64,000 nt of DNA from Chloranthus sessilifolius (lineage: Eukaryota > Streptophyta > Magnoliopsida > Chloranthales > Chloranthaceae). Below are positions 538 to 62,060 of the stretch, piece by piece (the stretch's first letter is position 1; each line of letters starts with the position of its first letter). The notes beneath the pieces are model-generated. The model was not told the origin of the DNA, ran no database searches, and was given only the letters and a program-made list of their open reading frames with translations. The DNA is taken from assembly GCA_021018995.1 (NCBI GenBank), contig CM037585.1, positions 86,466,646-86,530,645 of the forward strand. Direction: 5' to 3'. The position numbers and the translations under genes are program-made.

Positions 538-2402
538 TGTTGTTGTTCTAAGTGTGCATGATTTATTTGCGTTTTGAAAACAAATTTAAAGAATAAGAAA
601 ATATCAGCACAGTTAGAACATAATTAGCCTGCAAGATCAGGGCCAATTGTAGCAAGTTTTAAATATAAGTGAGTAAAAGATCGTCCACAGGGAATTAATT
701 TAAAATTTAAGATAAACCTCCAGATCTGAGCTACCAGATCTGGCCTCTGATCCTATCTACAAAGCACATAAGATGGGAGGTTGAATTTGTCACGTTAACT
801 AAATAATAAAAAGTAAAAATTAAACTAAATGATCCAGATCCGAGTTGGGGTAACGTTTGTGGTAAACTTATATGAAAAATGGAGAAGTAATATCTAACTT
901 TGATTTGGTCCTTGAAATCTAATGAGAATAACTGTAGCTCAGCAGAGGTGATCCAATCTTCATTTGGCTACAAGCACAGATGTAAGAGAGATAAATCTAA
1001 TTCAAGGATTAGGCTTACACTTATGGCTATGGTCTGTCCACTTTAATGGCCACAAACCATCCAATAGTCTTTAACCAAATCCTCAATTCAGAATAGGAAA
1101 CATCACTACAAATGCCGTAAGAGATTAGGTTACCAACACTAATTCTCACAGGATTAATGAATCAAGGGAAATTGCATGCAAAACAATGAATCTAAAGGAG
1201 TCTAATGTACTGAGGAGATCAGAGAGAACCCTTGACATGAGTCCAATGGAGAATGCATAGTTTACAACAACCTTTTAAAATCCACCATTACAATTACAGA
1301 GCACATCTTAAACAGCTCTCAGATTTGCAGTCTTGAATACAACTCTCTTTTGAATTACAGAAATATCTTACAGCTCTTAATTGCTAGTCAAAGTGAAGCT
1401 ATTACAGGGATTACAGACAAGCTGTCTGGCTGGGAAATGGGGGGTTTAGAAATGAAACTCAAAATTTGGATACCCAAATTGGGCAAATAGTTCATCTATT
1501 TATAATTTTCCCTAAGCCAGCTCAAATGTGTATCAACCAATCAGAATTGGATAGATCTGTATCAACCAATAGGAGTCGAGCAGATCCGGATCCGTTTGCG
1601 CCAATCGTAATCGCTTGATCTGGTTCAGCCAATCAAGAAACAGAGGCATCAATTCTGTTATGTAATTCAAAAATCTGTTTGAGCTTCTAGAAGTTCCCGC
1701 CAAGTAATTTCATCTTTGGGTGTTCACATGGGGTGGAATATGCCTTTGGTTCGTGCTCAGAATCTTCCGAAATGTCCTTGGGTTTTAAAACGCATTGGGA
1801 CGCATGCAACAGATTACTGAATTGCCCTTGTTAAAGCTGCGAATCTCCAGAATACCTTTTCGCAGAGTTCAGGGGCCTTTTTGCAAAGTTCAATGACTTC
1901 TGAAGCTCTATTCGCAAAGTTCAATCTTCTTTTCGAGGAGTTCAGATGCTCTTCGAAAGCTACACCTGGAGTTTTAGTCCTTTTTGCAGAGTTTAGGGGC
2001 CTTTTCGCAAAGTTCAATGACTTCTGAAGCTCTGTTCGCAAAGTTCAATCTTCTTTTCGAGGAGTGTTTTCTTCTTTTCACAAAGTTCAAGGTTCTTTAC
2101 GAAAAGTGCAAGTTCTTTGCGAAAAGAATTCTGTAGTGCATTTCTCAAATGTTCTGCTTCTCTTCTGGTCTTTGCCCTTTCTATTTAGACCTTTCCACAG
2201 CTGATGAGGTTGTTTCTTCACTTCCTTCCTTTGGACTGACATGGATTGTCATCTTTTTGGCACTTTTGAGCTACTTTTATGGTTAAGCGTGTCTTTATTG
2301 TTGGCTGCAACATAGGCACTTAAAATACTTATTTAGTTCTCTCAAGGGTCTATCAAGGCCCAGATTAAGGGGTGAAAAATGGTATTTTCCAGTTCTCAAC
2401 AC
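538..2402 (-). repeat. Element A 3' LTR
   Basis: It runs from TGTTGTTGTTCTAAG to CCAGTTCTCAACA on plus. It aligns over its length with the reverse complement of the element C LTR (50153-52008). On the minus strand it starts TGTTGAGAACTGG, directly after the purine tract AGGTTTGGGGGTG. U3 holds the phased word array (1840-2121). A conserved stem element lies near 1030-1065. Confidence 0.93.
1840..2121. promoter_or_regulatory. Phased TTCGCAAAG word array in U3 of element A
   Basis: Thirteen copies of a word of the form (T)TTCGCA(A/G)AG or TTCGAAAG have the cytosine of the core at 1840, 1861, 1882, 1913, 1934, 1954, 1985, 2006, 2037, 2058, 2079, 2100 and 2120. Some copies carry C-to-T or G-to-A changes. 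All gaps are 20-21 or 31 bp: 280 bp in 27 steps of about 10.4 bp. The same array is kept in the 5' LTR (5847-6130). Function is unknown; position in U3 suggests a regulatory array. Confidence 0.75.
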
Positions 2403-2427
2403 ACCCCCAAACCTAAGCTTTGCTAGT
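2403..2427 (-). other. Element A polypurine tract
   Basis: On the minus strand the sequence CTTAGGTTTGGGGGTG lies directly before the LTR start TGTTGAGAACTGG. This is the site expected to prime plus-strand DNA synthesis in Athila elements, and the same words precede the 3' LTRs of B (32841-32860) and D2 (59597-59620). Confidence 0.85.
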
Positions 2428-5400
2428 CCCTGAGCAAAGACAAAATTTAAAAATAGAATGAAAAGCCATTTTTGTAGGGAGCACAGTTGCATTTAGCATA
2501 TGCAACAAGCCTTTTAAACCCCTAGGTGATCCCTAGTGGAGGAGTGAAGTCTCCGAGGGTTTTCAAAGTGAAGGTACCACAAACTTCTCCAATAAATCGC
2601 TTAAGATCAATGCAGTTATTAAAGCAAACTTTTATCCAATCGATTATTCACATCTCGATCGAGTTGTAAGAAGTTTTTTAAGAAAACATCAGCTCAAAAC
2701 TAAAATTCTGTTGTAATTCCTTTACCATTCACTCAGTTGGTGTCAAAAAGTTTTTACAAGAAAAATTAATGAAAAGCTTGCCTTCTATTTGAGAATCCAG
2801 TTTTGATGTTACCCCAAATAATTTGATTTCAAACTCAACTCTCACAAGGGTTTTCACTCACCATGTAAATATGAGGGTTGCACTATTTCACACAGCTCAA
2901 GAGCAATTACAGTCCTCAAATAGGATTGTAAGCAGGAGCATAGGCATTGCTTTTCAGTTCTGAATTTACTACTTTTTTTCACCATAGATTACACAAATCC
3001 TTATCTCCATGTGACAGCTCAATCCATCATTGATCAGTAAGGACTTTAACTTGGGTTGTAATGTGGCTTATGGGTGAAATTTATCAAGAATAAAGGGGTG
3101 GAATGGAGTTCAAAATTGAGAAGTCAGTCAAGGTAAGGAGGTGATAGACACACCTTTTTCAATTCAGCACAATTTCATCTTCTTCTTTAAATTTTCAGAG
3201 CCAAAGTGGCCATCTTTTTCTCTTTCTTTTTCAAACTTCCAATGAAATGCCTTCTCTTTTTTTTTTTTTTTTTTTTAAATCAACATTGACTGGAATGCCA
3301 CATTTCTTCTGCTGATACATCATTGCCTTCAATTATTTTTCTTTTTCTTTTACCAAACTGTTACCCAACTCACCTTTCTTCTTGATTTCTTTCCTTTACC
3401 TTCTGAATTCTCAGAGTGAGGGTTAGGCTAAATGAGGTTGATGAGGTTTCAAAGAAATCTTGGATTTATAAAGCTCAATTGGTGTGTATCAAGGGCAGTT
3501 TCAAAAGGTTGGGCTTTTTGAAGTTCAAACTGTCCAAAAGGAGGCCTTACATCATGTCTTTAATATCATGATTGCTGTCAAGATATTTTAACTTGGATAT
3601 GTGTAACTTCTAGTGATAACAAGCCGGTTCAAACAGTCCCTAGAGCAGAAAAAACTGCCAATTTATACCTCCAAAGAATACATTTCAGGTCCAAATCTCA
3701 CTGGGTGTGGTTTTCTATCAAATTCTTGAGGTATATCATCACTGGTTTCTCTCTTTTTAGGTTTACTAAAACATCAATTTTCTTTTGGAAATTTTCTGAC
3801 ATTCACTTCATGAAAGTATTAGAATTACACTAGAAATTAATTTTAAAAAGTTTTAACTTCCTCATTTTAAAAAAAAACAGGTGTGAGATTACTTCATTTT
3901 CAAAAATTCTGCTGATCATAAGCTGCACCAAGCATTAACTTATTTTATTGGCATCTCTGCCACACCCCCAATCCTAAGATGAACATTGTCCTCAATGTTC
4001 TAGACAATGAGAGACTAGGGGCAGCAGGGTAAAAGAAGAAAGAAAAACTAAGAACAGAAAAAATCTAAACTATATGCAGCAGAAAATAAAAATGTAAAAC
4101 TGAAGATATGAACAAGGAAATGGAAAACATGATATACAAATGCAAGAAAAATCAACAAACCAACGCTAGAACTGCTAAATAAAATCTAAAAATTAGAAGG
4201 ATTACTATGCAAATGGAAGGAAACTAATGCTAATAACAGAGAAACAGTAAAAACAAGGTAAGGGACTGAATATAAAGTTAAAAAAAATAAAAAAAATGTT
4301 GATACAAAAACAGAATTTGTGAGTGCAAAATAGGGAAACTAAGTTAGAAACTAACTGTACTCACAGAAAAATGACAAAAATTAGTAAAACGAGGACACAT
4401 TAACCTAAGAAAGAAAAAAAATCAGCGATCTAAAAACAGAATTTGAAACTAAAATTCCTAAAACAGAAAATCTAATGCCAAATGATACATCCTAAGCCCA
4501 AAAAAAAAAAAAAAAAAAAAAAAGCCTGAGATACTTATGAATCTAAGTGAATATAAAAATGATTAGCAGGAATACAGTGAAAAGCAAGATTCATAAGACT
4601 GACCCCTTTGTTGATGATGTGTATGAATAAAAAAAATAATGAAGCATGGGAGCACATATTAAAAACAGGGTTCACACACAGCTGAGACCCATTTATGATG
4701 AAGAAATCTCGAAGGAAAATAAAATTAGTGGGCCCATTGAATATTCAAAACAACCTATGATTCACTACTCATTATCCTACATGATTCCTAAAAAAGAAAA
4801 AATAATCTCAGCAGGTCCAGATGGGAAAAGTGGATGCAAATGGAGAAAAACAGCCCATCCGGAAGATATCTATATATATATATATATATATTTTGTTTTT
4901 ATAATTTTCAATTTTTTTTTTTTTTTTTTTCACTTGTTTTGGATCAGCCCGGGCTCAACAAGAGCCCTTATTTACTACTGCTGAAAATAATGAGAAACAA
5001 CTCAGAGATTTTCTATTTGTGTTTTCAGCTTCTTTTATTTTGTATTTGGTTTTGTATAAAAAAAATCAGATGCCTACAAGATGAAATTATAATCAAAACA
5101 AACATTAAAACATCTCAAGAATTTAAAAATAGAAAATGAATGCAAAGGAGAAGGATGCAAACTCAGCAGATCTGCTCCACTTTAGTCCAGATGCTCCTTG
5201 TTGACGTGCTCCAGATCTCGCAAAAATCCAAAAATTACAATTTTATTCAAGTATATTGACAAAATAAAAGAAAAACTCAGTGCTCCCGCCAAATTTGACA
5301 AAAGACAAAAAGTGGCAAGAGATTTATTCAAATAACTAGAAGGCAAAGAATAAAACTCGTAAAAATAAAAAATTCTGCAGATAAAAGGTTTTCTATACAA

Positions 5401-5519
5401 AAGCTAGAGACATTTAATCAAGCACTTGGAATGCAAAGTGCAGGTTTAAAGCAAAAATTAAAATGAAAATCAAATCTACAAAATTGAAAAACTTAGGTCT
5501 ACCAATTTTAAAATCTATT
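2428..5519 (-). other. Element A internal region, non-coding
   Basis: I see no gene. The part nearest the 3' LTR (2428-3990) aligns with the same-position parts of B (31240-32840) and D2 (59640-61262); shared phrases include GGAGTGAAGTCTCC and TAAACCCCTAGGTGATCCCT. A second, internal purine-tract-like word (minus strand of CACACCCCCAATCCTAAG) lies at 3960-3977. The rest (3990-5519) is A-rich, with poly-A/poly-T runs (3258-3276, 4500-4523, 4913-4931) and an AT microsatellite at 4870-4890. Short frames here are chance products. Confidence 0.7.
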
Positions 5520-5540
5520 CCCCGGCAACGGCGCCAAAAA
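5520..5540 (-). other. Element A primer-binding site
   Basis: On the minus strand: TTTTTGGCGCCGTTGCCGGG immediately after the LTR end. TGGCGCCGTTGCCGGGG is the usual Athila primer site, matching the 3' end of a plant tRNA (tRNA-Asp in the family, from memory). Confidence 0.85.
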
Positions 5541-5542
5541 CT

Positions 5543-6417
5543 TGTTGTTATTCTAACTGTGCTGATATTTTCTTATTCTTTAAATCTGTTTTCAAAACGC
5601 AAATAAATCATGCACACTTAGAACAACAACAAGTTTTTGGCGCCGCTGCCGGGCATCAATTCTGTTATGTAATTCAAAAATCTGTTTGAGCTTCTAGAAG
5701 TTCCCGCCAAGTAATTTCATCTTTGGGTGTTCACATGGGGTGGAATATGCCTTTGGTTCGTGCTCAGAATCTTCCGGAATGTCCTTGGGTTTTAAAACGC
5801 ATTGGGACGCGTGCAATAGATTACTGAATTGCCCTTATTAAAGCTGCGAATCTCCAGAATACCTTTTCGCAGAGTTCAGGAGCCTTTTCGCAAAGTTTAA
5901 TGACTTCTGAAGCTCTGTTCGCAAAGTTCAATCTTCTTTTCGAGGAGTTTAGATGCTCTTCGAAAGCTACACCTAGAGTTTTAGTCCTTTTCGCAGAGTT
6001 TAGGGGCCTTTTCGCAAAGTTCAATGACTTCTGAAGCTCTGTTCGCAAAGTTCAATCTTCTTTTCGAGGAGTGTTTTCTTCTTTTCGCAAAGTTCAAGGT
6101 TCTTTACGAAAAGTGCAAGTTCTTTGCGAAAAGAACTCTGTAGTGCATTTCTCTGTTCGAAATGTTCCCTGCTTCTCTTACAGGTCTTTGCCTCTTCTAT
6201 TTAGACCTTTCCACAGCTGATGAGGTTGTTTCTTCACTTCCTTCCTTTGGACTGACATGGATTGTCATCTTTTTGGCACTTTTGAGCTGCTTTTATGGTT
6301 AAGCGTGTCTTTATTGTTGGCTGCAACATAGGCACTTAAAATACTTATTTAGTTCTCTCAAGGGTCTATCAAGGCCCAGATTAAGGGGTGAAAAATGGTA
6401 TTTTCCAGTTCTCAACA
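5543..6417 (-). repeat. Element A 5' LTR, internally deleted and partly inverted
   Basis: It is only 875 bp against 1865 bp for its 3' partner. After TGTTGTT (5543-5549) the next ~80 bp (5550-5631) are the LTR terminus in the opposite direction, followed by a second, forward primer-binding site (5632-5653). Normal LTR order then resumes at CATCAATTCTG, equivalent to about 1646. About 1.1 kb of LTR is missing. The rest, including the U3 word array (5847-6130), is intact and ends CTCAACA before the target copy ATATG. Confidence 0.88.
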
Positions 6418-7413
6418 ATATGGCACCTCACAGTCGCGCGAGCTCGCTCGAGCGATTGTGCTCTCTTTCTCTTTCTCACTCTCACAGCCTGAGATAGTTG
6501 CACGCGTGAGTTCTAAGGTCGCCCGAGCGACTTCTCATGGTCAGACTCAGTCGTGCGAGTGACTGTTCACAGATATTTTTCACACCTAATCTAAAGCTTA
6601 TCTCGCATGAGCGAGTTCAAGTAACGCGAGCGAATCTCAAGGTCGCGCAAGCAACTTTCGGGACTTTGGAGTTTTTTTCTCAAAATCTTACTTTCTTTAT
6701 TTTCCCCCCTTTCACCTAACTTTGATACAGATTAAATGAATCATTTCTAGGGCATTTATTACTATTATTTATCAACATTAATCTACCATTAATGCATTCA
6801 AAATCACAAGATCTTACGTCATTAATCTTTATGGATTCATGACCGAATGAACGCATAAATCGATACTTCTTCCACACAAATCGAAAAGGTTTGAGGTCCA
6901 CCTTCTTGCAATCGTGTCGAAATGCAAGCACGATTGATTCCCTTCCAATTGACACAACTCACGCTTCACGCTCTACGGCGATTCCAACGTGGACTTCTCA
7001 CACTCTTCACAATTCCAAAACAAACACTCCTTAGGTCACCTCTTGAGTCAACGATCAAGAAAGAGGAGCAATTTGCATGATAGATCGCCCACGATCTCGC
7101 TCTCAAGCGCACAGTTCTCACAAGCTCTCTCTTTTTTCTCTCTTCTTTTCCAAAAATTTTAAAGGCAATGCACATAAAAGGGTTTACCCTTCTCATATAC
7201 ATTTGGTTGGCTTCCATGTGAAGCACAAACACCCACCCTTAGGTGTTTCACACAAAGTTTGGTTCACTTGTGAATCCCGCACATCTAAGTTAGTTGTTTG
7301 CTCATTCTCAATCACATTAAGTGATCTTGCTAAATCCGAAACGGTACAGTGCACCGCACCGACACGTGTACCAAGTTTCTCTACACAATTTCCCTAAATT
7401 TGGGGGTGTTACA
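6418..7413 (-). repeat. Chromovirus 3' LTR, outer piece
   Basis: It continues the LTR piece 296-537. It ends on plus with TTTGGGGGTGTTACA, the reverse complement of TGTAACACCCCCAAA, the LTR start form common in Tekay/Del elements. U3 includes copies of TCGCGCGAGCGA between 6434 and 6655. No matching 5' LTR is present in the window. Confidence 0.75.
6434..6655. promoter_or_regulatory. TCGCGCGAGCGA word array in chromovirus LTR
   Basis: Copies and near copies lie at 6434, 6444, 6500, 6518, 6551, 6604, 6624 and 6643, continuing the two copies at 497 and 521 in the other LTR piece. Neighbour gaps of 10, 17-21, 32 and 52 bp occur, but others (25, 27, 58) do not fit whole helical turns, so phasing is weaker than in elements A, C and E. 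Confidence 0.55.
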
Positions 7414-7910: not shown

Positions 7911-8402
7911 TCATAGCCTCTCGGCTAGTCCACAGTCCTCATCCCCACCTGGCTGATCTGCATCGTTATCATCAGCTCCACCGGCTCCGAAACTAGAAGC
8001 CCCAAACACATATGCTCGTGCTGCACTCATGCGCTGGAGGTAATCTGATGGGTACATGTACCACATGGCATCACTTAGCATAGTCTCATGGTAGTAGAGC
8101 TGGCGTGTGTTTCGCTCGTTTTGCTGCGGAATTTGTTAGAGCGCTATGTCTTGCAAATCCATTCGTCGAAAAAGCTTCACTGCAAAATCAAAACTACCGT
8201 ATGAAGGAATTGGTGGTGGTATTGGGTACTGAGCCTCTTGATCTGGCTCCACATGGGGCTGTTGCGGTGGTTGTTGTTGCTGTTGTTGTTGTTGTTGCTG
8301 TTGCTATACAAGGTCTTCTGTTTGGCAGCGCTTCATGCTCGCATTCAGACTAGTGAGGCTAATCTTCAAGTCATCATATTTATATGTTTGGAGGTTGTCG
8401 GT
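7911..8402 (-). pseudogene. Accessory protein of chromovirus, C-terminal part with poly-Gln
   Basis: On the minus strand, directly after the Tat target duplication, a frame reads DNLQTYKYDDLKISLTSLN, then a run of about 12 Gln, then HVEPDQEAQYPIPPIPSY and an acidic tail ending CGLAERL-stop. The stop is at 7911-7913. Two in-frame stops interrupt it. The frame continues that of the N-terminal part (37995-38790): the reading phase across the removed Tat element is kept. It is therefore one gene cut in two by the Tat insertion. It lies between the chromodomain end and the 3' LTR, so it is either an accessory frame of the chromovirus or a captured gene. The poly-Gln/acidic tail suggests a disordered region; no function is known to me. 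Confidence 0.55.
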
Positions 8403-9128
8403 TGTGCAACCGTGAGATTTTTGACGATCTCGTCGTGGTGATGCACTCACTTGTAAAAAATATAGAGTCGCCACCCGGAGCTTTCGGTGTCCCGAAAAAC
8501 CTAGTTCATTTTTATGAGCACCGAAGTGCTAAAAATATGACTCTGAATCCGGTCCACACTAAAGGCTCTTGGGTAGGGGCTTCGGTTATCGATCGGGAAG
8601 GTGTTAGGCACCTGATCAACCCGCTTAATGCTGTTTTTACTAATGGCCAACACAAAAATAAAGTAAAAGAAAAAAAATGGCTTCCTCTTGTCCAAATGGG
8701 CCTTAAATCCTATTTGCGCCCCTCCGTTCCTACCGAAAATTTGGTGGCGTAACGACACAAATGGGAGGATAGGAAGAGCTAAGGAAGAGATATGAGAAGA
8801 AAGGGGAGAGCCGGAGCCCTCGAGCCCTTGTAGCACCGTAGGAGAGCCTTGTGTGGCTTGCTTTTGATGAGCTCTTGAAGGCTTGTATGGTGGAAATAGG
8901 AATTCTAACCTCTAAGGCTTGCTAGATAAGAGGTAGGGAGGGAAGAAAAATGGGTAGCATGTACCTAAACTAAAGGATCTAAGGTAAAAAATATCACTCA
9001 AAGGGGGTTTTGGAATTCTAGAATTTGTATGAGCAATGGTGCACCAAAGGGAGAAAGATCTTCTTACTTTAAGCTCTTTCTCTCTTAGGTAAAAATTCTC
9101 AACCTTTAAACCAAAGGGAGGGGGGCTC

Positions 9129-9136
9129 TATTTATA
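9129..9136 (-). promoter_or_regulatory. TATA box of Tat 3' LTR
   Basis: TATAAATA on the minus strand is followed by AGAGCCCCCC. The same words occur in the 5' LTR near 37090-37100. It splits the LTR into U3 (to its right) and R/U5 (to its left). Confidence 0.7.
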
Positions 9137-9415
9137 GGAAAAGGGTGGATTAAGAGAGTTTTTAGATGCTAATAATGGTTAGAAATTAGGTAATCTAGCA
9201 TCTAAGGTTTCCTAGGGTTTCAAGGGTTTAGAAAAGTGTGAAGATGGGCTTTAATGGTGGATGATGGGTTAATGGTTTAGACCACTTATAGGTTGCAAAT
9301 AGATGTTAAAAGGGTGTAACAAAGTTATCAAAACACACCCTAAGGACTGAGGTGTTCAATAAGTCAAACCCTAGCTTCAAAATTTGAGACAAAAACTAGA
9401 GGTCACTGTTCATAT

Positions 9416-9640
9416 GCCTGGCGCAACTATTAGTTGCGTCAGGCAAATGTACAGTAAAATAGTTCTTTACAGTAGCCTGAAAGTTGGCTTCGCGAGGGGT
9501 GGGGGGACCCATTTATATCTAGCGTAACTATTATTTACGCCAGGCTATTTCTAGGGAAAAAAGGCCTGGTGCAATTATTAGTTATGCCAGGAAAATTCTA
9601 GGGGAAAATGGCTTGGCGCAACTATTAGGTGCGCTAGTCA
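9416..9640. promoter_or_regulatory. Tat U3 palindrome array (GGCGCAACTATTAGTTGCGCC)
   Basis: Four copies of an inverted repeat with arms of about 13 bp around a single central T are centred at 9430, 9531, 9578 and 9625 (gaps 101, 47, 47). The 5' LTR keeps the same four at 37394, 37495, 37542 and 37589, with identical gaps. Substitutions differ between copies. Confidence 0.75.
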
Positions 9641-10032
9641 AAAATTCTTTCAAAATGACCTGATTTGCAAATGGTCATAACTTTTGATATATAACTCTGA
9701 TTGAAGTGATATTTGGCTTGTTAGAAAGATAGGAAAGTTCTCTTTCCAATGGTATATAACTTAGCTCTTAAAACGGTCTAGGTAAAATTTTGCACTCCTC
9801 TTTCCAGCCACTGCTTGGGAGGGTTTGACACCGGTCAAGAAAAGGGTTCTAATAGATTTAGAAAGGTTAGGATTGATTCCTAAGGGTTCAGGAAGGTTTC
9901 TAAGGGTTTGAAAAGGCTCCTAAGGGTTTGGAAAGGTTCCTAAGGGTTTCATACATGCCATCAAAAGCTCGGAAGTGCACCTCTCTCGAAATGTATTTCG
10001 ATTGGGCCTTGGGCCAAATTTGGGTGTATATA

Positions 10033-10048
10033 GATGCCCCTCTTTGGT
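10033..10048 (-). other. Tat polypurine tract
   Basis: On the minus strand CCAAAGAGGGGCATC abuts the LTR start. The Tat LTR at 45344 has the related tract CCGAAAAGGGGCATC. Confidence 0.82.
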
Positions 10049-22288: not shown

Positions 22289-22567
22289 TGTTAAGTGGTA
22301 AAAAATGTCACTTTTCACCCTTTGACCTGACCATTGATAGACCTGTGAGCACGCTAATAAGCTTCTGTCAAGTGAATTTTGTAGATAGCAATGAAAAAGG
22401 ACACTAATGTAGAAAACCACTCAAGAATGCCCAAAAAGGGGCTATCTCTTAGTACAGGACAAACCCAGCAACAGCACACCAGAGGGTAGCACATCACTGG
22501 ACCCTTGGAGTGCGTGGCTGCAGCAGGACAAGGCAAAGGAAGTGAAAACAGGCTAAAAACATCCTTT

Positions 22568-23090
22568 CGATTGGTCACTTGAAGACTTCGATAGGAGCTG
22601 AAAGCAAAAAAAGGAAGAATTCGTGCAGTTGAGGTTTTCCATAGGACCTGAAGGCAGAAGAAGAATGGATTCGTGTGGATTGAGGAGTTCGATAGGATCC
22701 AATAACCTATCGAGCAGCTGAAAGGAAGGAAGAAATCATCCCATCGAAAACCTGCCTGAGGTGTCAAGGGATCCTATCGAATGGTTTCTTCAAACCTATC
22801 AAGATGAAGGCGCTGGAACAGAACCTATCGAAGGGAACTTGAGCCTTTCGATAGGAGTGAGAGCAACCCTATCGAAATGGTGGCATGCAGAGTAGAGCCT
22901 GTCGAAATGGTTCTCCAACCTGTCGAATACTCCAGGCTAAGGGCTGAGAATGCTGAAACTCTAAGAGAAGGCTCATCCTATAGAACCTATCGAAGAGATC
23001 TGAGAACCTAGCGAAAGGACCAAAATGCTCTATTTGAACTTGTCAAAAGCTTCCTGAACTTGTCGAAATCGTGTACAGAACTTCTCAAAA
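22568..23090. promoter_or_regulatory. Phased CCTATCGAAAGG word array in U3 of Athila B
   Basis: More than twenty copies occur in both directions (CCTATCGAAAGG and its complement CCTTTCGATAGG; also TGTCGAA). Core C positions include 22568, 22589, 22622, 22672, 22690, 22711, 22745, 22765, 22778, 22800, 22829, 22849, 22873, 22903, 22924, 22991, 23012, 23044, 23064 and 23086. Gaps cluster at 20-22 and 29-34. The 3' LTR has the same array (33140-33660) with small indels. Confidence 0.7.
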
Positions 23091-24436: not shown

Positions 24437-24755
24437 AGGTGTGTTTAGAAATTGATAGATCTAAGTTTTGATCATAGATCTGTAGCTTTTGTTTGATTTT
24501 TACTAACTGCTGTTAAGACCTGAAAAGTACCACTTTTCGCCCCTTAACTTAATCTCTGTTAGACTCTTAATTATTTAATAAAAGTGTTTTAAGCATGTTC
24601 TGTAGGTAATGAACAATAGTTGCAATAAGGCCTTAATCCTGTTAAGGAGCCTGCTTTTGCCCCAGAAGTCTCTCAGAAGAAGGGAAGCTGGATCCAGACG
24701 AGAACTTGACTGCATGAAGGTAAAGCACAACAGCAATAGAGCAAGAAATGAGCCT

Positions 24756-25300
24756 CGCACAGTTGTCGCAAGGTTCAAAGGATTTAGAAAGTAAGCCTCG
24801 CGCAGTCCTCGCGAGTTTCCCAAGACTTCATACCAAGTATCTGCACTGTTCTTGCGCAGTTTAGTGATAGAAGGGCTTCAGAATCATGAGTCACGTAGCT
24901 CAAGAAAGCAGCACTCAAAATCTAGCGCAGTTCACTCAAATCAGCTGAGGAGAGAGAGAGCCCCAGGTATTTCTGCACGCAGCTATCGCGCAGTGACCGC
25001 GGGATGCAAAACTGCAGAAAAACTTCTCACGCAGTTTAGAGACCAATGCACATCACGCCCTCGCGAGGATCCTCGCGGAGATCCATTGAGAAACAAACTG
25101 CCTGCGCGATTCTCATGCCATTCAGAAGGAAAGTGCAATCTCGCGAAGACCAGAACAATCCAGCGAGGATTCAATGCTCCATCACGCGACTGCTTAAGTT
25201 GCAAACTAAGACAACCCCGCGACGGCTAGAATTTCAAGTTAATCCAATCTCGTGAAGACCGTGCTACCACGCGACAGTCTTGGAAGCCAGTGCTACCTGG
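24756..25300. promoter_or_regulatory. GCGCGAG/CTCGCGCAG word array in LTR D1
   Basis: CpG-rich words such as CCTCGCGCAGT and CTCGCGAG occur, often in pairs 10-11 bp apart with 32-34 bp between pairs (24756/24767, 24799/24810, 24844/24855, 24926/24936). They lie between the LTR start and the TATA box at 25491. The D2 LTR carries the same word between 58803 and 59400. Confidence 0.6.
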
Positions 25301-25490
25301 CGAGGCTCTGGACTCTAACTCTCACTCACTTCTATAGAGGACAGTCTGGGAACTTCCAATAATTAGGGTACGCACTCCAATGCTCTAATTTCTATGCACA
25401 CGCCTCGAGGCATCCAAGGAACAATATTAGGCCACATGGCATTGTTAAAATTAGGGTTTCCTAACCCTAATGCGCCGCCAAACTGACTGC

Positions 25491-25498
25491 TATATAAA
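25491..25498 (+). promoter_or_regulatory. TATA box of LTR D1
   Basis: TATATAAA in GACTGCTATATAAACC; the same phrase occurs in minus orientation in the D2 LTR at 58609-58616. Confidence 0.75.
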
Positions 25499-27204
25499 CC
25501 TAAGCCTGGTTTAGGTTTAGGGGCACCCTCTTAGAATAGAATTTTTGTCTATCTTCTTCTTGCAGTAGCTGTAGACCTCTAGTAAAGTTTAGGTAGATTT
25601 CTTTTTACTTTTTATTCTCTCCATAGCCCAGCACTTGCTGGCTATGCTTCTGTATGCTTATTTGGTTTAGAATTAATGAAATTTCATGATTGGGTGTTTT
25701 ACATGTATGGGATTGAAGTTTGAGATTGAGTTGTTCTGTATAAGGCTGCTGCCTTGAGATCCTCCATTGATAGGTTGTATTATGAGCAATGAAGGACTAT
25801 TTTTAGAGACCTATTTAGATCCAAGTGACCTGTGTGTCTGGGCTAACATGCTCCCATACAAGCCTAGCCCCACCACAGGATCCACTAGATCTGAAATCCC
25901 CATTGGAGCTTGTGCTTGTAGCCTTGTGAACATGGTGGTGATAGCAGTGTTCTTGTTCTGTTTTGGTCCTCTGTGAGGAGGATAGCCTTTGGGATAGTCT
26001 GTGACCATTTAAGTGGACATGTTATAGCCTTAGGGTGAGGCCAATCCACAGATCCAAAATAGATTCTTCTTCTCTGCACTTGTGCTTGTAGCCCTGTGAG
26101 AGATTGCGCAGAGCCAAACTCCCCTGTATTTGTATAGACCCGCCATCAGATGGCAGATCTGGTTTGGTTCTAGAGATTGTAGGCTTGTGACTGGATCACT
26201 GCAGTCTTTCTACAGCAATGGACAGCTAGACCTAAGACTGTACTCAAACTCTTGCTGGTTCTGTGTCTGGGCTAACATGTTCCCGTACAGGCCTAGCCCC
26301 ACACATAGCACTTTAGAGGTTGAGGTTCCCTATGGATTCTTGTGCTTGTAGCTTGGATGAAGTAGTGCTTACAATGATAGACTTGTTCTGACCCATCTCT
26401 GGACTGTGGTTCCCCAATTGGATAGTCTGTGACCATTTAAGTGGACAAGTTATAGCCATAAAGGGATTGGATCATGGCACAGAGATAAGTTGGATTCTTT
26501 CTCCTCAGTGGTGATAATGTAGCCATTGGACAGGACTTCTATAGCAGTAGATCTGAATTTGAGTCATGAAACCTATCAGATTTGAACCTAATAGCATACT
26601 TCTCACCATTTTGTATTTATTTTCTCGCACTCCATCCTTCTTCTCAACCCTTTCTGTAGTTAAATCATTAGATTACACGAGAATGTAGGAATAAGTGACC
26701 TTAAATCACCTTCCATTTAGGACTGCCGGATCTGTAGTCAGATATGAAGAGCCTACTACTGGTGGCTCCCTTGGAGCTTTAGATCAACTTTCCCTGTGGG
26801 ACAAACTCTTACTTATCAAAACTTGCTACAACAGGCCCTGTATCTTGCAGGACTGTGCATATTTTAGGCTTGCTACTTTGTCATTTTCAATCCACCTTTC
26901 ATTCATTTTCATTCACCCCATTCTTATCACTGCCTCCAATAAAGTCAGTAGCAAGCACTTAAAAATATTCCAACAACTGCGTTTGTAAGTTTTGTTGTTT
27001 TTTAGTAGTTTGTATGCATTTCATCATATCTAAGGCTACCAGTGAGAGGAGAATCGTGCTGGAGACTGCTCTGTAGTTTGCATCCCTCTACTCCCCTGTT
27101 ATTTTTCAGATCTGTTGATAATTTTTATTAGAGTAGTTAGAAAATTTGGTTGATTCAGCTTGTTGTGTTGATGATCTATTCTGCATTCAGATTTTGAGTG
27201 TTGT

Positions 27205-30040: not shown

Positions 30041-30053
30041 TTTTAGAAGTCTT

Positions 30054-30373
30054 CGATAGGTCAAGTTCACCTTTCGATAGGTCACATGGTGATTTCGGCA
30101 GGATGCTCGGTGGGTTTGATAGGCACTGAACTTCTCGACATGCAAAATTAACTTCTCAATCGGTTAAAAAGAGAAAAATAGAGATTTCGATAGGTTCTAG
30201 ATACCAATCGGAAACCTATCGAAATGATGACTCAGCTGCCGTTTAAATTGATAGAAAGGATAGTTCCACCTATCGAGATCTTATCGAATCATCCCCTTTT
30301 AAGGTTTTGTCTGCTATGCTTTCGACGGGACGCATGAACCTATCGAGACCATCCAGTTCATCCTATCGAAATC
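30054..30373. promoter_or_regulatory. Second, internal TATCGAAAGG array of Athila B
   Basis: The private word of the B LTR recurs here. Core C positions include 30054, 30075, 30096, 30117, 30136, 30157, 30188, 30209, 30220, 30249, 30274, 30285, 30323, 30344 and 30367. Gaps from 30054 to 30220 are 21, 21, 21, 19, 21, 31, 21 and 11 (166 bp, 16 steps of ~10.4). It sits 350 bp before the small conserved frame at 30717. Confidence 0.7.
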
Positions 30374-30716: not shown

Positions 30717-30953
30717 ATGGAAAATGACAAGCCCACGCTCATTCCTGCTCAACTCTACCTCTTTTGGCTGGAGCCACTATAGCCCAAGGAACCAGACCCA
30801 TTGCAATTCCTCTGGGATGAATATGAGGAGGTACAGCGGATCCTCGCTAAGGAGGAAAAGGACAAGGATAAGAAGGAGAGGAAGAGGCTAAAGACCGAGC
30901 CACCGGCTTCTCCGCCACCATCCTCCTCCATCACCCGTCACCCTACCCCCTGA
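30717..30953 (+). pseudogene. Small conserved post-pol frame of Athila B
   Basis: From ATG at 30717 a 78-codon frame runs to TGA at 30951 with one in-frame TAG near codon 22. It shares with the D2 frame (61444-61686, minus) the words WLEP, PKEPDPLQ, LWDEYEEVQ and ILAKEE, followed by a Lys-rich then Pro/Ser-rich tail. The order (charged helix-forming centre, basic patch, proline tail) is the same in both. I recognise no family. In both elements it lies after pol's position, downstream of a private word array and upstream of the internal purine-tract-like word. Confidence 0.6.
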
Positions 30954-32860: not shown

Positions 32861-34983
32861 TGTTAAGTGGTGAAAAATGCCACTTTTCACCCTTTAACCT
32901 GACCATTGATAGACCTGTGAGCACGCTAATAAGCTTCTGTCAAGTGTATTTTGTAGACAGCAATGAAAAAGGACACTAATGCAGAAAACCACTCAAGAAT
33001 GCCCAAAAAGGTGCTATCTCTTAGCACAGGACAAACCTAGCAACAGTACACCAGAGGGTAGCATATCATTGGACCCTTGGAGCGTGTGGCTGGAGCAGGG
33101 CAAGGCAAAGGAAGTGAAAATAGGCTAAAAACATCATATCGATTGGTCAACTGAAGACTTTGACAGGAGCTGAAAGCAAAGAAAGAAAGAATTCGTATAG
33201 TTGAAGAGGTTTTCGATAAGACCTGAAGGCAGAAGAAGAATGGATTCGTGTGGATTGAGGAGTTCGATAGGATCTAAGAACCTATCGAGCAGCTGAAAGG
33301 AAGGAAGAAATCATCCCATCGAAAACCTGCCTGAGGCATCAAGGGAACCTATCGAGATGAAGGCGCTGGAACAGAACCTATCGAAGGGAACTTGAGCCTT
33401 TCGATAGGAGTGAAAGCAACCCTATCGAAATGGTGGCATGCAGAGCAGAGCCTGTCGAAATGGTTCTCCAACCTGTCGAAGAGCCTCTCCAACTTGTCGA
33501 ATACTCCAGGCCAAGGGCTGAGACTGTTGAAACTCTAAGTGAAGGCTCATCCTATTAGAACCTATCGAAGAGATCTGAGAACCTAGCGAAAGGGCCAAAA
33601 TGTTCTATTTGAACCTGTTGAAAGCTTTTTGAACCTGTCGAAATTGTGTGCAAAACTTCTCAGAAATTCAGCTGTGCACACGTTGTGATTCGGTGACCTG
33701 CTGCACGCAACTCGAGGCACTTGATGACCGGCACGATGATTTCAGAAGATGCCCTAGAAAACCCTAACCGACTTACATGTTCTAACAGAACTCTAACAAA
33801 CTCTGAGGATCTCTAGAAGGGATTTTTGGCGGGAAAAATAGAGGAGAAATCTATATATAGAGACCCCCAATTGCAATTGAGGGGAGATTGAGATCTGAGC
33901 CAAATTCTAGAGATTAGAGCTTGCAGAGAAATTCTATTTTCCCTCCTTTAGCCCAACCATGGTTGGCTAATTCCCTTGGAGTAGCGAGGAGAGAAGTTAG
34001 AACTGTAATTGGGTAAGGTTAAGAGTGCTATTGAAGGTTCCTAACTGCACAGACTACAGATCTGAGAGTATTTCCATTGTAGAGTGACGTTGATTGCAAT
34101 GTTAATGCTGTTTTTAATGCTTTAATTAGATCTAAAGTTCCTTTGATTTCATTTGGTGATCGATCGGATTTGTGTAGAGTCTGTAGGTCAGCTCACCAAG
34201 TTAATTGGTAGGCCTCTTGGATACCACCCGATCTCCCTGGATCTGATACTCCTGTGATTCCTTGAGTCTGTGACCTGGGAATTGTAACATCTGCAGTGGT
34301 TTTAATTGTTCTAATTGAGGCCTTAGCTTTAGAGCAGATCCCTAGGATGGTCTGTGACCATTAAAGTGGACAGATCATAACCTTAAATTAGTCCAAGCTT
34401 AGGTTCCAATTGGCTTCGTCTACTGCAAATCCATGGATTCGATAAAGTCTAAAGGATGGTTTGTGACCATTAAAGTGGACAGATCATAGCCTTAAGACCA
34501 GGTGGATCCTGCGATTCGAAGTGGAGTTTATACCCTGCAGCTGTGCTTATAGCCAGTTGAGGGAATTGTGTGCTCTGAACCTCTGTAGCATAATTAATTG
34601 AATCTGATTTCAGTGAAAACCAATCTCCAAGCTACTCTTCTCCATTTTCTGCTTTTTACCTCTTTCCCCTGCAATATCTAAGATCCTAAACTCGATCTAA
34701 GTTAGTCTATGTTTAATTTTAACTTAGCTTAAGTGACAATCCAGTTTAAACCTCTCCCTTGTCTTTTAGCTAACGTAGCATTAGTTAGGGTGCCAGATCT
34801 AATACATATCTGGAGAGTTATCATATTTTTAAACCAACCTCCCAGTGGACATTCCCTTACTCACCATCTTTGTAAAACTTGCTACAACGGATCCTGATTA
34901 CTTGCAGGTCTGTGTGAGTGTGTTCTGCCTAGTTTTATTTATGATTTTGGACCCTCATTTGAGGGAAGGCAAACACTCCAACA
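32861..34983 (+). repeat. Athila B 3' LTR
   Basis: Partner of 22289-24413 with scattered substitutions and short indels, e.g. around 33345 where a run of words present at 22770-22800 is missing. It ends CACTCCAACA before ACTAC. LTR divergence is visible by eye, so the insertion is not recent. Confidence 0.96.
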
Positions 34984-50152: not shown

Positions 50153-50421
50153 TGTTGAGAACTGGAAAATACCATTTTCCACCCCTTAACCTGAGTCTTG
50201 ATAGACCTTTGAGAGTACTAAAGAAGTGTTTTTAGCGTTTATTTTATAGCTAATAATAAAGGCAGGCTTAACCCTAAAAGCAGCTTAAAAGTGCCAAAAA
50301 GATGATGACTTATGTGAATCTAGTGGAAGAAGGAGAAGGGACAAACTCACTGGCTGACAAAATGCCTAAACTAAAGAGGACAAAGGCCCGATCTCAACCT
50401 GGAAAGAGGTTTAGAGCTATT

Positions 50422-50640
50422 CGAACAGAAGAATGCATTACAGAATGCTTTTCGAAAAGAACCTAAACTTTTCGAAAAGATCTAAAAGCTCCAGGCTTAA
50501 TTTTCGAAGAGCACCTGAACTCTTCGAAAGGATTTCTGACCTATTCGAAAAGAAGAGAACTCCTTGTGAACAACACCAGAACTGTGCGAAAAGAGCTTCA
50601 GAAGTTACAGTACCTTACGAAAAGTTCTCCAAACTGTGCA
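50422..50640. promoter_or_regulatory. Phased TTCGAAAAG word array in U3 of Athila C
   Basis: Core positions are 50422, 50453, 50473, 50505, 50525, 50546, 50567 (TGTGAA variant), 50587, 50618 and 50639. Gaps are 31, 20, 32, 20, 21, 21, 20, 31 and 21 bp: 217 bp in 21 steps of 10.3 bp. Same word class as element A, but the order of two- and three-turn gaps differs. Confidence 0.78.
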
Positions 50641-51000
50641 AAATGGCATTCTAAAGATTCCCAGCATCTGCAAGGGTAATTCAGTAATCTCTGCATGTGC
50701 CCCAATGCATTTAAAAACCCAAGGACATTCTGGAAGATTTTGAGCACGAACCAAAGGCATATCCCACCCCATGTGAACACCCGAAGATGAAATTACTTGG
50801 CGGAAACTTCTAGAAGCTCTAATAGATTTTTGAATTACATAACAGAATTGATGCTTCTGTCATCTGATTGGCTGAACTAGATCAAGTAGTTATGATTGGC
50901 CAAAACAGATCTGGATCCTTGTGCTCGACTCCTATTGGTTGATACAGATCTAACCAATTCTGATTGGTTGATACACATCTGAGCTAGACTTGGGGAAAAC

Positions 51001-51008
51001 TATAAATA
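51001..51008 (+). promoter_or_regulatory. TATA box of Athila C LTR
   Basis: TATAAATA within GGGGAAAACTATAAATACATG, about 360 bp after the word array. Confidence 0.75.
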
Positions 51009-52014
51009 CATGAACTATTTGCCCGATTTGGGCATCCAGATTTTGAGTTTCATTTCTATTGCCCCATTTCCAACTCAGATAGCTTGTCTAAAACCTTTGT
51101 AATAGCCTAGCTTTTGTCTGTACTTAAGAACTATGAGATACTTGTGTAAATTCAAGTGAGAATTGTATTCAAGACTACAAATCCGAGAGCTGTTTAAGCT
51201 GTGCTCTGTAATTGTAATGGTGAATTTGAAAAGGTTGCTGTGAACCGTACGTTCTCAATTGGATTCGTGTTAAGGGTTTCCTGTGATCTCCTTATTTCAT
51301 TAGATTCCTTTAGATTTACTGTTTTTAAAGCAATTTCCCTTAATTCATTATCCCTGTGAGAATTGGCGTTTGTAACCTAATTTCTCACAACATTTGTGGT
51401 AGTGTTTTTTTTGTTCTGAATCATGAATTCGAATTGAAGACTATTGGATGATCTGTGTCCATTGAAGTGGACAGACCATAGCCATAAGTCCAACTTAATT
51501 TCAATCCTTGAGTTGGATTACTTTCTCTTGCATCTGTGCTGGTAGCCAGATGAAGATTGGTTAATATCTCATTTGCTTTACATTTATTCTCATTCTACAA
51601 TCAAGTACTGAATTGAAGTTAGATATTATTTCTCCATTCTTAGTAATTTACATCAAATCTCCCCAATTCGAATCTGGATCATTTAGTTTTAATTTTTACT
51701 TTTATCATTTAGTTAATGTGACAAATTCAACCTCCCATCTTATGTGCTTTGTAGATAGGATCAGAGGTCAGATCTGGTAGCTCAGATCTGAAGGTTTATC
51801 TTACATTTTAAATCAATTCCCTGTAGACGATCTTTTACTCACTTACATTTAAAACTTGCTACAATTGGCCCTGATCTTGCAGGCTAATTATGTTCTCTCT
51901 GTGCTGATATTTTCTTATTCTTTTGAGTTTTCCAAATTCAGTACAATTCATCATTTGTAAGTCTGTTTTCAAAACACAAATAAATCATGCACACTAAGAA
52001 CAACAACAAGTTTT

Positions 52015-57122: not shown

Positions 57123-59596
57123 TGTTGCTCCCCTAGCTGTGCTTTCTTTGTTTGTTAGTGGTAAAAGTAATTTAAAAATCAAAGAAAGAGTAAAACAGGG
57201 GATGGAATCAGCACAACTGAGAAGTCCTAGACCTGCAAGATACAGGGTCCATTGCGGCAAGTTTTGATAAGTAAGAGTTTGTCCCACAGGGAAAGGTGAT
57301 CTACAGCTCCAAGGGAGCCATCTCTAGTAGTCCCTCCAGATCTGACTACAGATCTGGTAGTCCTAAAAGGAGGGGAGTTTAAGGTCACTTATTCTAGGTA
57401 TTCTAAGGTAACCTAATGTCTAAACTACAGAAAGGGTTGAGAGGATGGATGGAGTGTGGAAAATAAATATAAAAGGGTGAGAAGTATGTTATTGAGCCTA
57501 GATCAGAGGAGCTTTGTAACTCAGATTCAGATCTGATGTTATAGAAATCCTGTCCAATGGCTACGTTATCACCAGTGAGGAGAAAGGATCCAACCCATCT
57601 CTCTGCCATGATTCAATCCCTTAAGGTTATAACCTGTCCACTCAAATGGTCACAGACTATCCCATAGGGGAACCACAATCCTGGGATGGGTCAAAGTAAG
57701 TTAATCATTGTAGGCACTATTTCATCCAGGGTACCAGCTCAAGAATCCATAGGGAACCTCAACCTCTAAAGCTCTATGTGTGGGGCTAAGGCTGTATAGG
57801 ACCATGATAGCCCAGACACATAGAACCAACAAGAGATTGAGTACAACCTTCGATCTAGCTGTCCATTGCTTGAGTGAGGCTACAATGGTCCAGTGACAAC
57901 CCTACAATCTCTATAACTAGATCAGATCTAACATCTGATAGCGGATCTATACAAATATAGGGGAGTCTGCCTCTGTACAATCTCCCACCAGGCTAATACA
58001 AGCTCAGGTGTAAAGAAGAAAGATCCATCCTGGATCGGTGGATTAGAATCACCCTAAGGCTATAACCTATCCACTTAAATGGTCACAGACTATCCCAGAA
58101 GCTATCCTCCTCACGGAGCTCAAGATAAAACAAGAATATCGCTGCCACCACCATGGTCACAAGGCTACCAGCTCAAGCTCCCATGGGGATTTCAGATCTA
58201 GTGGGTCCTGTGGTGGGGCTAAGGCTGTATGGGACCATGATAGCCCAGACACACAGGTCACTTGGATCTAAGTGGCCCTTAGAATCAGTCCTCCATTACT
58301 TTGAATCACAGCCAAAGTAATGGCGGATCACAAGGCAGTAGCCTTGCACAGAGCATCTCACATTCAAACACAAATCCCATAATGTAAAAAAAATCCTATT
58401 ACAGAACTTCCGTTAAACTAGTTCAAAATGCATACAAAGACATAGGTAGCAAGTGATGGACTATGGAGAGAAGGAAAAAGAAAAAGAAAACTACTTACAG
58501 CTATAAAAAGAAAAGAAAAATGATCTCAGATTAAGTCTCTAAGAAATGAGATGTGTTTCCAGCTATTCCAGGATATTCCAAGATGTCTAAATCTAAGCTA
58601 AGTAAGGGTTTATATAGCAGTGGTGTGGCAGCGCATTAGGGTTAGGAAACCCTAATTTTAATGATGCCACGTGGCCTAATAGTGATCCTTGGATGCTTCG
58701 GGGCACTTGCATGGAGATTTAAGAGTGAGAGTGCGTGCCCTAATTGCTAGAAATTCCCAGAAAGTCCTCTACTGAAGTGATGGAAGTTGAAGTTCAGAGC
58801 TTCGCTAGGTAGCTATTATTTCCCAGACTTGTCGCGTGGTAGCTCTTGCTTTTCGCGAGGATGGTTTGACATTAAAGCTTCAACCGTCGCGAGGTTGGAG
58901 TTCAAGCAGTCGCGAGGTAGCTGCGCATTCACTGGGTTGATCTTCGCGAGGATGGATTTGAATAGCGCGAGAACTGCGCGATCACTTTTCTTCAATGGAC
59001 TTCGCGAGTTACCTCGCGAGACTTTAATGAGTTCTGAACTACGCGAGGTTCCATGTCTTAATTGATCTTCGCGAGGATGGCTCTGCCTTTACGAGGATGC
59101 TTTCTTCTCGAATGGCGCGAGAACTGCACGAGGAGTTCTCTTATGATAGTTACATCCCGCGGCGACTGTGTGACAGCTGCGCGAGGAGTCTTCTGAAGCT
59201 TTCTCTCCTTAGCCATTCTGAGCGAACTGTGCGAGGTTGAGAGAGGTCTGCTTTGAACTACGCAAGATTGCGTGATGTGTTCTACTCTTGAGCTTCGTGA
59301 GAGCTGCGTGAGTTTGTGCTTCTGAACCTCTTCAGTTACTCAACTGCGCGAGAAGTTGTTGTAAAGTCTGGGGAAGCTCAGTTGAACTGCGCGAGGCTCA
59401 TTTCAGGTCGGGATTCAGGGTTCATCCTTCTGAGGGACCTCTGGTGCCAAAATAGGCTCCTTAGCAGGATTCCTGGCCTTATTTCACTGCTGATTATTAC
59501 CTACATAAAACACTTAACAAGAACTTATTAGATGGCTAAGGGTCTAATCAAAGGTTAAGTTAAGGGGTGAAAAGTGGTACTTTTCAGGTCTTAACA
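57123..59596 (-). repeat. Athila D2 3' LTR
   Basis: TGTTGCTCCCCTAGC to GGTCTTAACA on plus (minus start TGTTAAGACCTG). U3 word array at 58803-59400, TATA box 58609-58616 (minus). R/U5 carries two copies of the conserved stem element, near 57622-57663 and 58059-58100, as in D1. Left-end bases differ from D1, so subfamilies differ. Confidence 0.92.
58803..59400. promoter_or_regulatory. GCGCGAG word array in U3 of D2
   Basis: About twenty CGCGAGG/GCGCGAG copies, e.g. core C at 58803, 58833, 58854, 58888, 58911, 58924, 58945, 58966, 58977, 59003, 59015, 59042 and 59070. Gaps of 11-13, 21, 30 and 34 are common but 26-28 also occur; phasing is looser than in A, C and E. Confidence 0.6.
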
Positions 59597-61443: not shown

Positions 61444-61686
61444 TCAAGGATGGGGGGGTTGGAAAGGTGGTGGAAGGGGTGGAGTGGAGGGGACAGGGGA
61501 TGGTTCTATCTTTTGCTTTTTCATCTGTGGCTGGAGCTTTTCCTCCTCCTCCTTAGCAAGGATCTGCTGAACCTCCTCATATTCATCCCAGAGGGGTTGT
61601 AGGGGGTCCGGCTCTTTCGGTGGGGGCGGTTCCAACCACATCGGGTAAAACTTATTAGGCAGCGCATTAGGCTTGTCACCTGCCAT
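61444..61686 (-). CDS. Small conserved post-pol frame of Athila D2
   Basis: A complete frame of 80 codons, ATG to stop, without breaks. It starts MAGDKPNALPNKFYPMWLEP, then PPPPKEPDPLQPLWDEYEEV and QQILAKEEEEK, then a Lys-rich patch and a Pro-rich end. The B frame (30717-30953) shares the core words and position. No signal peptide or membrane segment is seen; the acidic centre probably forms a helix. I do not recognise the family. Upstream lies a GCGCGAG array (61880-62060); downstream are ~180 bp and then the internal purine-tract word. Confidence 0.65.
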   Translation of the reverse strand: MAGDKPNALPNKFYPMWLEPPPPKEPDPLQPLWDEYEEVQQILAKEEEEKLQPQMKKQKIEPSPVPSTPPLPPPFQPPHP

Positions 61687-61879: not shown

Positions 61880-62060
61880 ATTTGACTCGCACAACTGGGT
61901 AAGGGGATCACGAGATAACTGAATCTCGCGATGATGGATGTTGGAGCTTAAAGTGCGTGAGAGATTCTGCAGCATTTGTTGAAGCTCGCGATAGCGAAAT
62001 AAATGTTCTATGTGAATTGCGCGAGAGCTTCCCAAATCTCAATTTGGAATGCGCGAGGGC
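61880..62060. promoter_or_regulatory. Internal GCGCGAG array of Athila D2
   Basis: CTCGC/CGCGAG words at about 61887, 61911, 61925, 61955, 61985, 62020 and 62052, the same private word as in the D2 LTR. It sits 200-370 bp upstream of the small conserved frame. Gaps (23, 15, 30, 30, 35, 32) are not clearly phased. Confidence 0.55.

Follow-up and report, generated by a model that had tools for sequence, protein, structure and literature searches.

Helically spaced palindromic words in the LTRs of plant Ty3/gypsy elements: a putative promoter platform

The LTRs of a retroelement from Chloranthus sessilifolius (element A) carry an array of short, CG-centered near-palindromes with a spacing period close to 10.4 bp. 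Element A has three relatives (elements B, C, and D) within the window, which is the whole stretch of 64,000 nucleotides that we analyzed. Several features are apparent in the sequence: the position of the arrays, the dyad symmetry of the words (in A and C together, and in B), the recurrence of the word, its phasing (strong in A and C, moderate in B), and enrichment in CpG. We propose that the array is an upstream cis-regulatory platform of the U3 promoter, most likely an activating one, on which a dimeric factor binds sites that are in helical register with each other; we consider this somewhat probable. We propose a dimeric, sequence-specific factor because the dyads repeat upstream of the TATA box and recur at a second putative promoter.

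The array in element A

Element A is flanked on both sides by its target duplication, ATATG (533-537 and 6418-6422), which marks it as a complete insertion. Its polypurine tract (PPT) lies just right of 2401. Its internal part (2402 to about 5520) lacks any frame of 150 codons, and just five of its stop-to-stop frames reach 70 codons, so element A is non-autonomous. Of the 5' LTR there is only a remnant, with 766 bp of U3 followed by a self-inverted piece (5521-5653). This inverted repeat (135 columns, 80%) joins two copies of the LTR end and primer site, and the piece looks like a product of aberrant reverse transcription.

538..6417, minus strand: element A, a non-autonomous LTR element (3' LTR 538-2401; 5' LTR remnant ending at 6417)
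1856..2126, minus strand: array in the U3 of A's 3' LTR (A3), with 12 scored words whose cores span 1861-2120; a further, weak word is at 1840
5863..6164, minus strand: the same array in the other LTR copy of A (A5), with 13 words (cores 5868-6158)
1855..2065, minus strand: direct duplication within the A3 array at an offset of 124 bp (87-bp arms 1855-1941 and 1979-2065)
1493..1504, minus strand: TATA box of A's 3' LTR, at LTR position 898

The original prediction listed 13 core positions in A3, from 1840 to 2120. Each of these does hold a core, and the 12 gaps between them (21, 21, 31, 21, 20, 31, 21, 31, 21, 21, 21, and 20 bp) were given correctly. The words that it quoted hold up less well: although the cores are present at 13 of 13 positions, exact TTCGCAAAG or TTCGAAAG is found at only 4 of the 13, and the rest are degenerate. 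(At 3 of the 13 noted positions, TG or CA replaces the core CG; the word at 1840 is the weakest and lies outside the scored words.) The array was correctly placed in an LTR; it lies in the U3 of element A. It was also right that this is not a coding repeat, as the mixed gaps are not all multiples of three and the array is upstream of the TATA box, and that the gaps, which mix two lengths, are not those of a simple tandem repeat.

We scanned A with a weight matrix built from the words of C only, and C with a matrix built from A5. The C-only matrix finds 12 words in A3 (1861-2120, with scores of 6-10) and no other word in the 921-bp stretch of A3 that was scanned. It finds 13 words in A5, or 14 at a score of 6; conversely, the A5 matrix finds 8 words in C, or 9 at a score of 6. 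With a combined A+C matrix and a score of 8, there are 13 matches in 330 bp of A5 (3.9 per 100 bp) versus 17 in 60,161 bp of array-free sequence (0.03 per 100 bp). A caveat is that the words of A5 and C were themselves the source of this matrix. The density of words in the A array is far beyond chance.

Relatives within the window

about 22289-24414, plus strand: 5' LTR of element B (B5), with an array of CCTATCGAWAGG-type words at 22563..23070
about 32861-34984, plus strand: 3' LTR of element B (B3), with an array at 33135..33645
50153..52012 (end approximate), plus strand: 5' LTR of element C, with a TATA box at about 51001 and the primer-binding site (PBS) just downstream
50417..50645, plus strand: array of element C, with words at 50422, 50453, 50473, 50505, 50525, 50546, 50587, and 50618, and a weak one at ~50639
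57229..59596 (limits from similarity), minus strand: LTR-like sequence of element D (D1), with nCCTCGCGnAGTT words (cores at about 59391-58804) and a TATA box at ~58616
24513..26860, plus strand: D-family LTR-like sequence inside B (D2), with its own array of D words at about 24757-25300
36361-37992: LTR of an unrelated family (E), with 27-bp palindromes like CCTGGCGCAACTAATAGTTGCGCCAGG

The two LTRs of B are 91% alike. The ORFs of C encode an aspartic protease and then RNase H before integrase (PF17917, PF17921, PF00665). RNase H before integrase is the order of Ty3/gypsy elements. By domain order, then, the carrier is a Ty3/gypsy element and not a Ty1/copia Sirevirus. We take the PBS of these elements to pair with tRNA-Asp. 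In a protein search with the gag-protease region, we considered the best 120 of 5717 matches. Those with an organism name were all from flowering plants, and the highest identity among these 120 was 67%, over 52% of the query. Scans for more copies gave 0 matches with a pattern search of viral contigs; a pattern search of proteins gave 26 matches, none of them a relative.

D-family sequence lies within B, shortly past B's primer site (D2, 24513-26860), and also after the pol of C (about 57123-57229), so these elements are either nested within one another or fused. On the minus strand, integrase and RNase H domains mark fragments of further reverse-transcribing elements at 14200-15623 and 41066-41761. 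The palindromes of family E are found at about 9418-9640 and 37381-37612, upstream of a TATA box, and four copies were found in one LTR copy; a 20-bp repeat in E is at 9865-9949 and 37840-37905. A search for inverted repeats in 8300-10100 found none at the settings used.

The word is a near-palindrome

A and C share a 12-bp, CG-centered near-palindrome, with C's array (50422-50618) a diverged form of A's, and the U3 arrays of B and D hold diverged versions of the word. In the orientation of the element, the words are CTTTTCGAAAAG in C (exact twice in the array), mostly CTYTKCGAAAAG in A, and similar to CCTATCGAWAGG in B. The A+C matrix has a correlation of 0.95 with its own reverse complement (p=0.0008). 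For the B matrix, the correlation is 0.87, and 0 of 5000 column permutations gave a value as high. The D word is partly symmetric, with a correlation of 0.65 (the coefficient alone). Each of these palindromes would be a putative site for a dimeric DNA-binding factor.

Depending on the array and the threshold, there are 8 to 23 words per LTR array. The seed words were chosen by eye from lists of CpG sites, and CpG sites in B that are unlike the word were excluded as seeds. B3 was scanned with its own matrix, and B3's matrix was used for B5 and for the internal region of B. The D matrix was built from 8 or 14 selected words of D1, depending on the scan. The specificity of the words between families is incomplete: the B matrix also matches words in A5 (13) and C (7); the A+C matrix matches words in B5 (3) and D1 (4); and the counts for the D matrix are 2 for A5, 0 for C, and 5 for B5.

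Two known types of site were considered and rejected. The words are not an array of heat-shock elements, as they lack the GAAnnTTC spacing and HSE-like sites are found elsewhere in the U3. Nor are they sites of the TTYGAA type, which we take to be the motif of CXC/TCX-type proteins: most words in C fit it, but most words in A or B do not.

The spacing follows the helical repeat

The gaps between words are 31, 20, 21, 21, 21, 31, 21, 31, 20, 21, 31, and 21 bp in A5 and 31, 20, 32, 20, 21, 41, 31, and 21 bp in C. Among periods of 7-16 bp, the best is 10.35 bp in both A5 and C, which bears out the original prediction that the words sit on a lattice of about 10.4 bp. The best period is 10.45 in B5, 10.5 in B3, 10.45 in the internal array of B, 10.5 in D1, and 11.05 in D2. 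Gaps that are evenly spread, which would have undone the helical reading, were not found: they are clearly excluded in A and C, and in B they are excluded gap by gap (p about 0.002).

When A is cut to one copy of its duplication and C is left out, the phase statistic for A is V=0.98 (p=5e-6 versus uniform phase). The corresponding values are V=0.54 (p=8e-4) for the LTRs of B, V=0.68 (p=7e-4) for the internal array of B, and V=0.28 (p=0.04) for D1. If each distinct gap value is counted once, then p=0.002 for A, 0.027 for the B LTRs, 0.020 for the internal array, and 0.043 for D1. Without the 20-21 bp gaps, only A is significant (p=2e-4, versus 0.10 for the B LTRs, 0.054 for the B internal array, and 0.11 for D1). 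These tests treat the gaps within one array as independent, and duplication makes them non-independent, so the p values are optimistic.

Over longer distances, the coherence at 10.4 bp is R=0.94-0.97 in A and C, 0.24 in B5, 0.40 in B3, and 0.16 and 0.51 in D. The results for D also depend on the threshold. For D1, the phase p value ranges from 0.003 to 0.19 (0.07-0.19 at thresholds of 8-10), and its best period shifts to 8.5 bp at thresholds of 9-10. For D2, p ranges from 0.007 to 0.05, and the best periods in D drift between 8.45 and 11.45 bp. The array of family E is out of phase (gaps of 47, 47, and 101 bp; V=-0.74), so palindrome arrays need no phase in general. Overall, A and C show very strong phasing at about 10.4 bp; in B it is moderate and holds gap by gap, D gives a weak signal, and E gives none.

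If the array is indeed a platform for dimers, then gaps of whole turns would make all the dyads face the same side of the helix, where neighboring dimers could touch each other or a common partner, and binding might be cooperative. According to the excerpted text of one study (PMC1488866), helical phase can matter for cooperating factors, although it matters little in the case studied there.

The same spacing might instead be structural, with phased words that set the rotation of a nucleosome or curve the DNA. Besides the 10.4-bp spacing itself, T-tracts and A-tracts lie beside the CG, and purines are periodic in the spacers of A5 (p below 0.001) and of C (p=0.008), as are A, T, and C in A5. 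This base periodicity is probably due to the repeated unit. Against a structural role, curvature is not above that of spacer-jittered arrays (p of 0.11-0.28 for A5 and 0.40-0.61 for C, for the wedge values used), and the spacers show no periodic W/S pattern in A5 (p=0.11), C (p=0.45), or B3 (p=0.73). We think it very unlikely that structure explains the array, and the suggestion of a nucleosome-related signal in the original prediction finds no support: W/S periodicity is absent from the spacers, and the arrays have no excess of curvature.

Duplication and phase

Could the lattice be a by-product of duplication? Slippage and unequal exchange of units of about 21, 31, and 52 bp could give a passive repeat whose phase was never selected. 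Several observations fit this. An 87-bp block of the A3 array is duplicated at an offset of 124 bp, so not every word or gap in A counts as an independent observation. Both A and C show strong self-matches at lags of 21, 31, and 51-52 bp. As discussed above, phasing outside of A and C rests largely on the 20-21 bp gaps. Also, exchange between words would presumably preserve the lattice. Indeed, if the array is a platform, unequal duplication between words would be how it grows, and such exchange would tend to keep the register.

The conservation of the words also fits a passive repeat, as it is no better than that of their flanks. Between A3 and C, the conservation is 0.81 for words, 0.71 for spacers, 0.79 for the upstream LTR, and 0.875 for the downstream LTR (the alignment is poor in the middle of the array). 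For words and spacers, the values are 0.973 and 0.968 between A5 and A3 and 0.938 and 0.932 between B5 and B3. On these values, conservation does not clearly favor the words over the sequence around them.

On the other hand, the spacers of the 31-bp gaps are of three kinds, each common to A and C. These kinds are unlike each other (in 15 of 16 comparisons between kinds, p was above 0.1; the exception is C3-C7, with p=0.022), yet all of the spacers are 19-20 bp long. As far as the sequence can tell, the strongest argument for a role of phase is that three unrelated spacers have the same length. Another point against a passive repeat is that the internal array of B keeps the word and the best period of the B LTRs and is not a plain copy of them (one 34-bp piece, E=0.003). 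The original prediction had named a single tandem duplication of about 52 bp as an explanation that would defeat the helical reading. Since A's three spacers of 31-bp gaps are mutually unlike, one such duplication is ruled out as the sole cause, although duplication is still part of A's history (the block at 124 bp and the strong self-match at lag 52). We conclude that the phase stems partly from duplication. That a passive repeat is the whole explanation is tentative at best, though it has a real chance of being right.

Position in the U3, CpG content, and silencing

The first words are at LTR position 259 in A5, 281 in A3, 270 in C, 280 in B, and about 200-240 in D. The TATA box is at LTR position 849-992 in A3, B, C, and D; the A5 remnant lacks a TATA box. 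The last word is 188-362 bp upstream of the TATA box in A3, B5, C, D1, and D2 (in A3, there are 358 bp between the TATA box and the nearest word). The ratio of observed to expected CpG is 0.71-1.20 in the 7 arrays versus 0.16-0.41 elsewhere in these LTRs.

Further motifs lie between the array and the TATA box. Four inverted CCAAT boxes, 28-39 bp apart, are found at 1537-1633 in A and at 50867-50967 in C. The U3 of C has a three-unit heat-shock-type site, GAAacTTCtaGAA, at 50803-50815. In its counterpart in A (1685-1697, minus strand), one unit is imperfect; B5 has a two-unit core (TTCTAGAA), and B3 has none. A heat-shock-type site in the U3 resembles heat-responsive plant LTRs.

The CpG-rich palindromes could also be a target of silencing, which the host reads as sites for methylation or small RNAs, as has been reported for Sirevirus palindromes. 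When the two LTRs of A are compared, 4 of 12 word pairs differ, each by one C-to-T or G-to-A change, and 3 of these changes are in the central CG. These changes are as expected if the CG sites are methylated. The RNA of the arrays folds somewhat better than 60 dinucleotide shuffles (z of -1.7 to -3.4; 8 strands from 4 arrays). In Sireviruses, small RNAs are in excess on palindrome clusters, according to a passage in PMC10760457 that cites Bousios 2016. The comparison of the two LTRs of B points the other way, as 6 of 15 word pairs differ, mostly outside the central CG. Silencing alone would also leave unexplained why the words are kept, why they are in phase, and why there is a second, internal array. 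We consider silencing a rather improbable explanation for the arrays. Because the element keeps its words, we infer activation rather than silencing. By analogy with VANC proteins, anti-silencing is possible as well.

Internal arrays and a small third ORF

Both B and D have further words in their internal regions, followed downstream by a TATA-like site and then by a small third ORF:

30049..30373, plus strand: second array of B words, in the internal region of B, with 10 words at a score of 8 and 11 at a score of 7, and a TATA-like site at 30521
61885..62060, minus strand: small cluster of D words, in the internal region of D, with 3 words at a score of 8 and 5 at a score of 5, upstream of a TATA-like site at 61766
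30717..30902, plus strand: small third ORF, B copy (62 codons compared, with an in-frame stop)
61444..61686, minus strand: small third ORF, D copy (80 codons, open)

Scanning the whole window with the B matrix gave ten further words at 30054-30367, inside B and outside its LTRs. At a score of 8, the internal region of B (340 bp) has 10 B words, versus 1 by the A+C matrix and 1 by the D matrix. Similarly, the internal region of D (200 bp) has 3 D words, versus 0 by the A+C matrix and 0 by the B matrix. The background at this score is 0.05 per 100 bp for the B matrix and 0.04 for the D matrix. Judging from these matches, the U3 and internal arrays have a word in common. With BLAST, internal and LTR arrays match only in pieces of at most 52 bp (the best is 34 bp, with E=0.003), so the internal arrays are not plain copies of the LTR arrays. 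They may still have patches in common. Since each of these elements reuses its own word before an internal TATA-like site and the third ORF, one factor could switch both units, with the internal site as a second promoter.

The core of the third ORF looks to be coding. Between B and D, codons 23-47 have 2, 2, and 9 differences at codon positions 1, 2, and 3. Across all 62 codons, there are 16, 16, and 27 differences, with 15 synonymous and 24 non-synonymous codon changes. The third ORF has no match in Pfam, and a protein search with one candidate found no relative at E up to 0.001.

Comparison with known systems

Several plant elements share some of these features. VANDALs are DNA transposons, and Tnt1 is a Ty1/copia element. 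In the available excerpts on the VANDALs of Arabidopsis and their VANC proteins (PMC5735166, PMC10398659), dense, short, family-specific motifs are likewise present in several non-coding parts and tied to tandem duplication. Their motif (YAGTATTAY) is not palindromic, unlike the words described here. In those excerpts, the protein that binds the motif is known and encoded by the element itself; here, the third ORF is only a candidate. The Ty3/gypsy element Retand, as excerpted in PMC11963269, likewise has family-specific tandem arrays, which lie between pol and the 3' LTR, together with extra ORFs in that region that are thought to be DNA-binding. These ORFs are mainly antisense (TRP28), the LTRs are 315-1,194 bp versus about 1.86-2.1 kb here, and the excerpt describes no palindrome or phase. 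The BII boxes of Tnt1 are boxes of an LTR promoter that bind defense-induced factors, according to an excerpt of PMC3316501, and their sequence differs from the words here. The Athila, Calypso, and Diaspora elements (Ty3/gypsy) resemble ours in their long LTRs and in having, a few bases after the LTR, a PBS that is for tRNA-Asp there and putatively so here, and the excerpted part of PMC1142308 describes no such arrays. Palindromes and Athila are not mentioned in the portion of PMC11656987 that was available.

In the open-licence literature, a search for palindromic promoter motifs in the LTRs of plant gypsy elements returned only a paper on Sireviruses, and a search for helically phased binding sites in retrotransposon LTRs found no report. 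Both are weak evidence of novelty.

The closest known system is the repeated-motif (RM) boxes of Sireviruses (PMC2829016). The original prediction knew of no described plant LTR system of this form; that was mistaken, as Sirevirus LTRs have boxes of palindromic repeated motifs in the same place. RM boxes are palindromes that number at least 8, and as many as 32, in each element. They mostly start 200-400 bp into the LTR, upstream of the TATA box, and are tied to CpG islands; in 9 of 13 elements, extra copies are found in the linker after pol and before env (PMC2829016). The arrays here are alike in their symmetry, their number (at least 8), their place, including the start at 200-400 bp and upstream of the TATA box, and perhaps their presence before an extra gene. 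For CpG islands, a possible counterpart is a ratio of observed to expected CpG of 0.71-1.20 (judged by the ratio alone). For the copies before env, it may be the internal arrays of B and D before a small ORF without a Pfam match.

There are also differences. Sireviruses are Ty1/copia, whereas the gene order here is Ty3/gypsy. The CGG-CCG core of Sirevirus boxes is absent from the words here (it is also missing from ACAATCGATTGT of Tnd-1). Because the carrier is not a Sirevirus and the core differs, the arrays here lie outside that family. Also, these arrays have a register of about 10.4 bp, and the section on Sirevirus boxes reports no analysis of spacing (PMC2829016). The authors of that study called for experimental confirmation that RM boxes are regulatory; in the part available, they took the boxes as support for an internal promoter and could not identify one. 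If RM boxes are regulatory, then by analogy the arrays here would work like them.

A more speculative idea, which we think unlikely, is that a plant Ty3/gypsy lineage evolved two-promoter control independently of Sireviruses. A palindrome that diverges between families would be arrayed along a single side of the DNA in two places, the LTR and the region ahead of an internal ORF. Its reader would be a single dedicated factor, which the element itself might encode (in the third ORF) and which co-evolves with the word as VANC proteins do. The internal reuse of one word is relevant to the expression of genes beyond pol in plant retroelements. The helical register allows a direct test of how the array works, by comparing shifts of 5 bp and 10 bp. 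If our proposal is true, then palindromic promoter arrays would be a convergent solution in the two great superfamilies of plant LTR elements.
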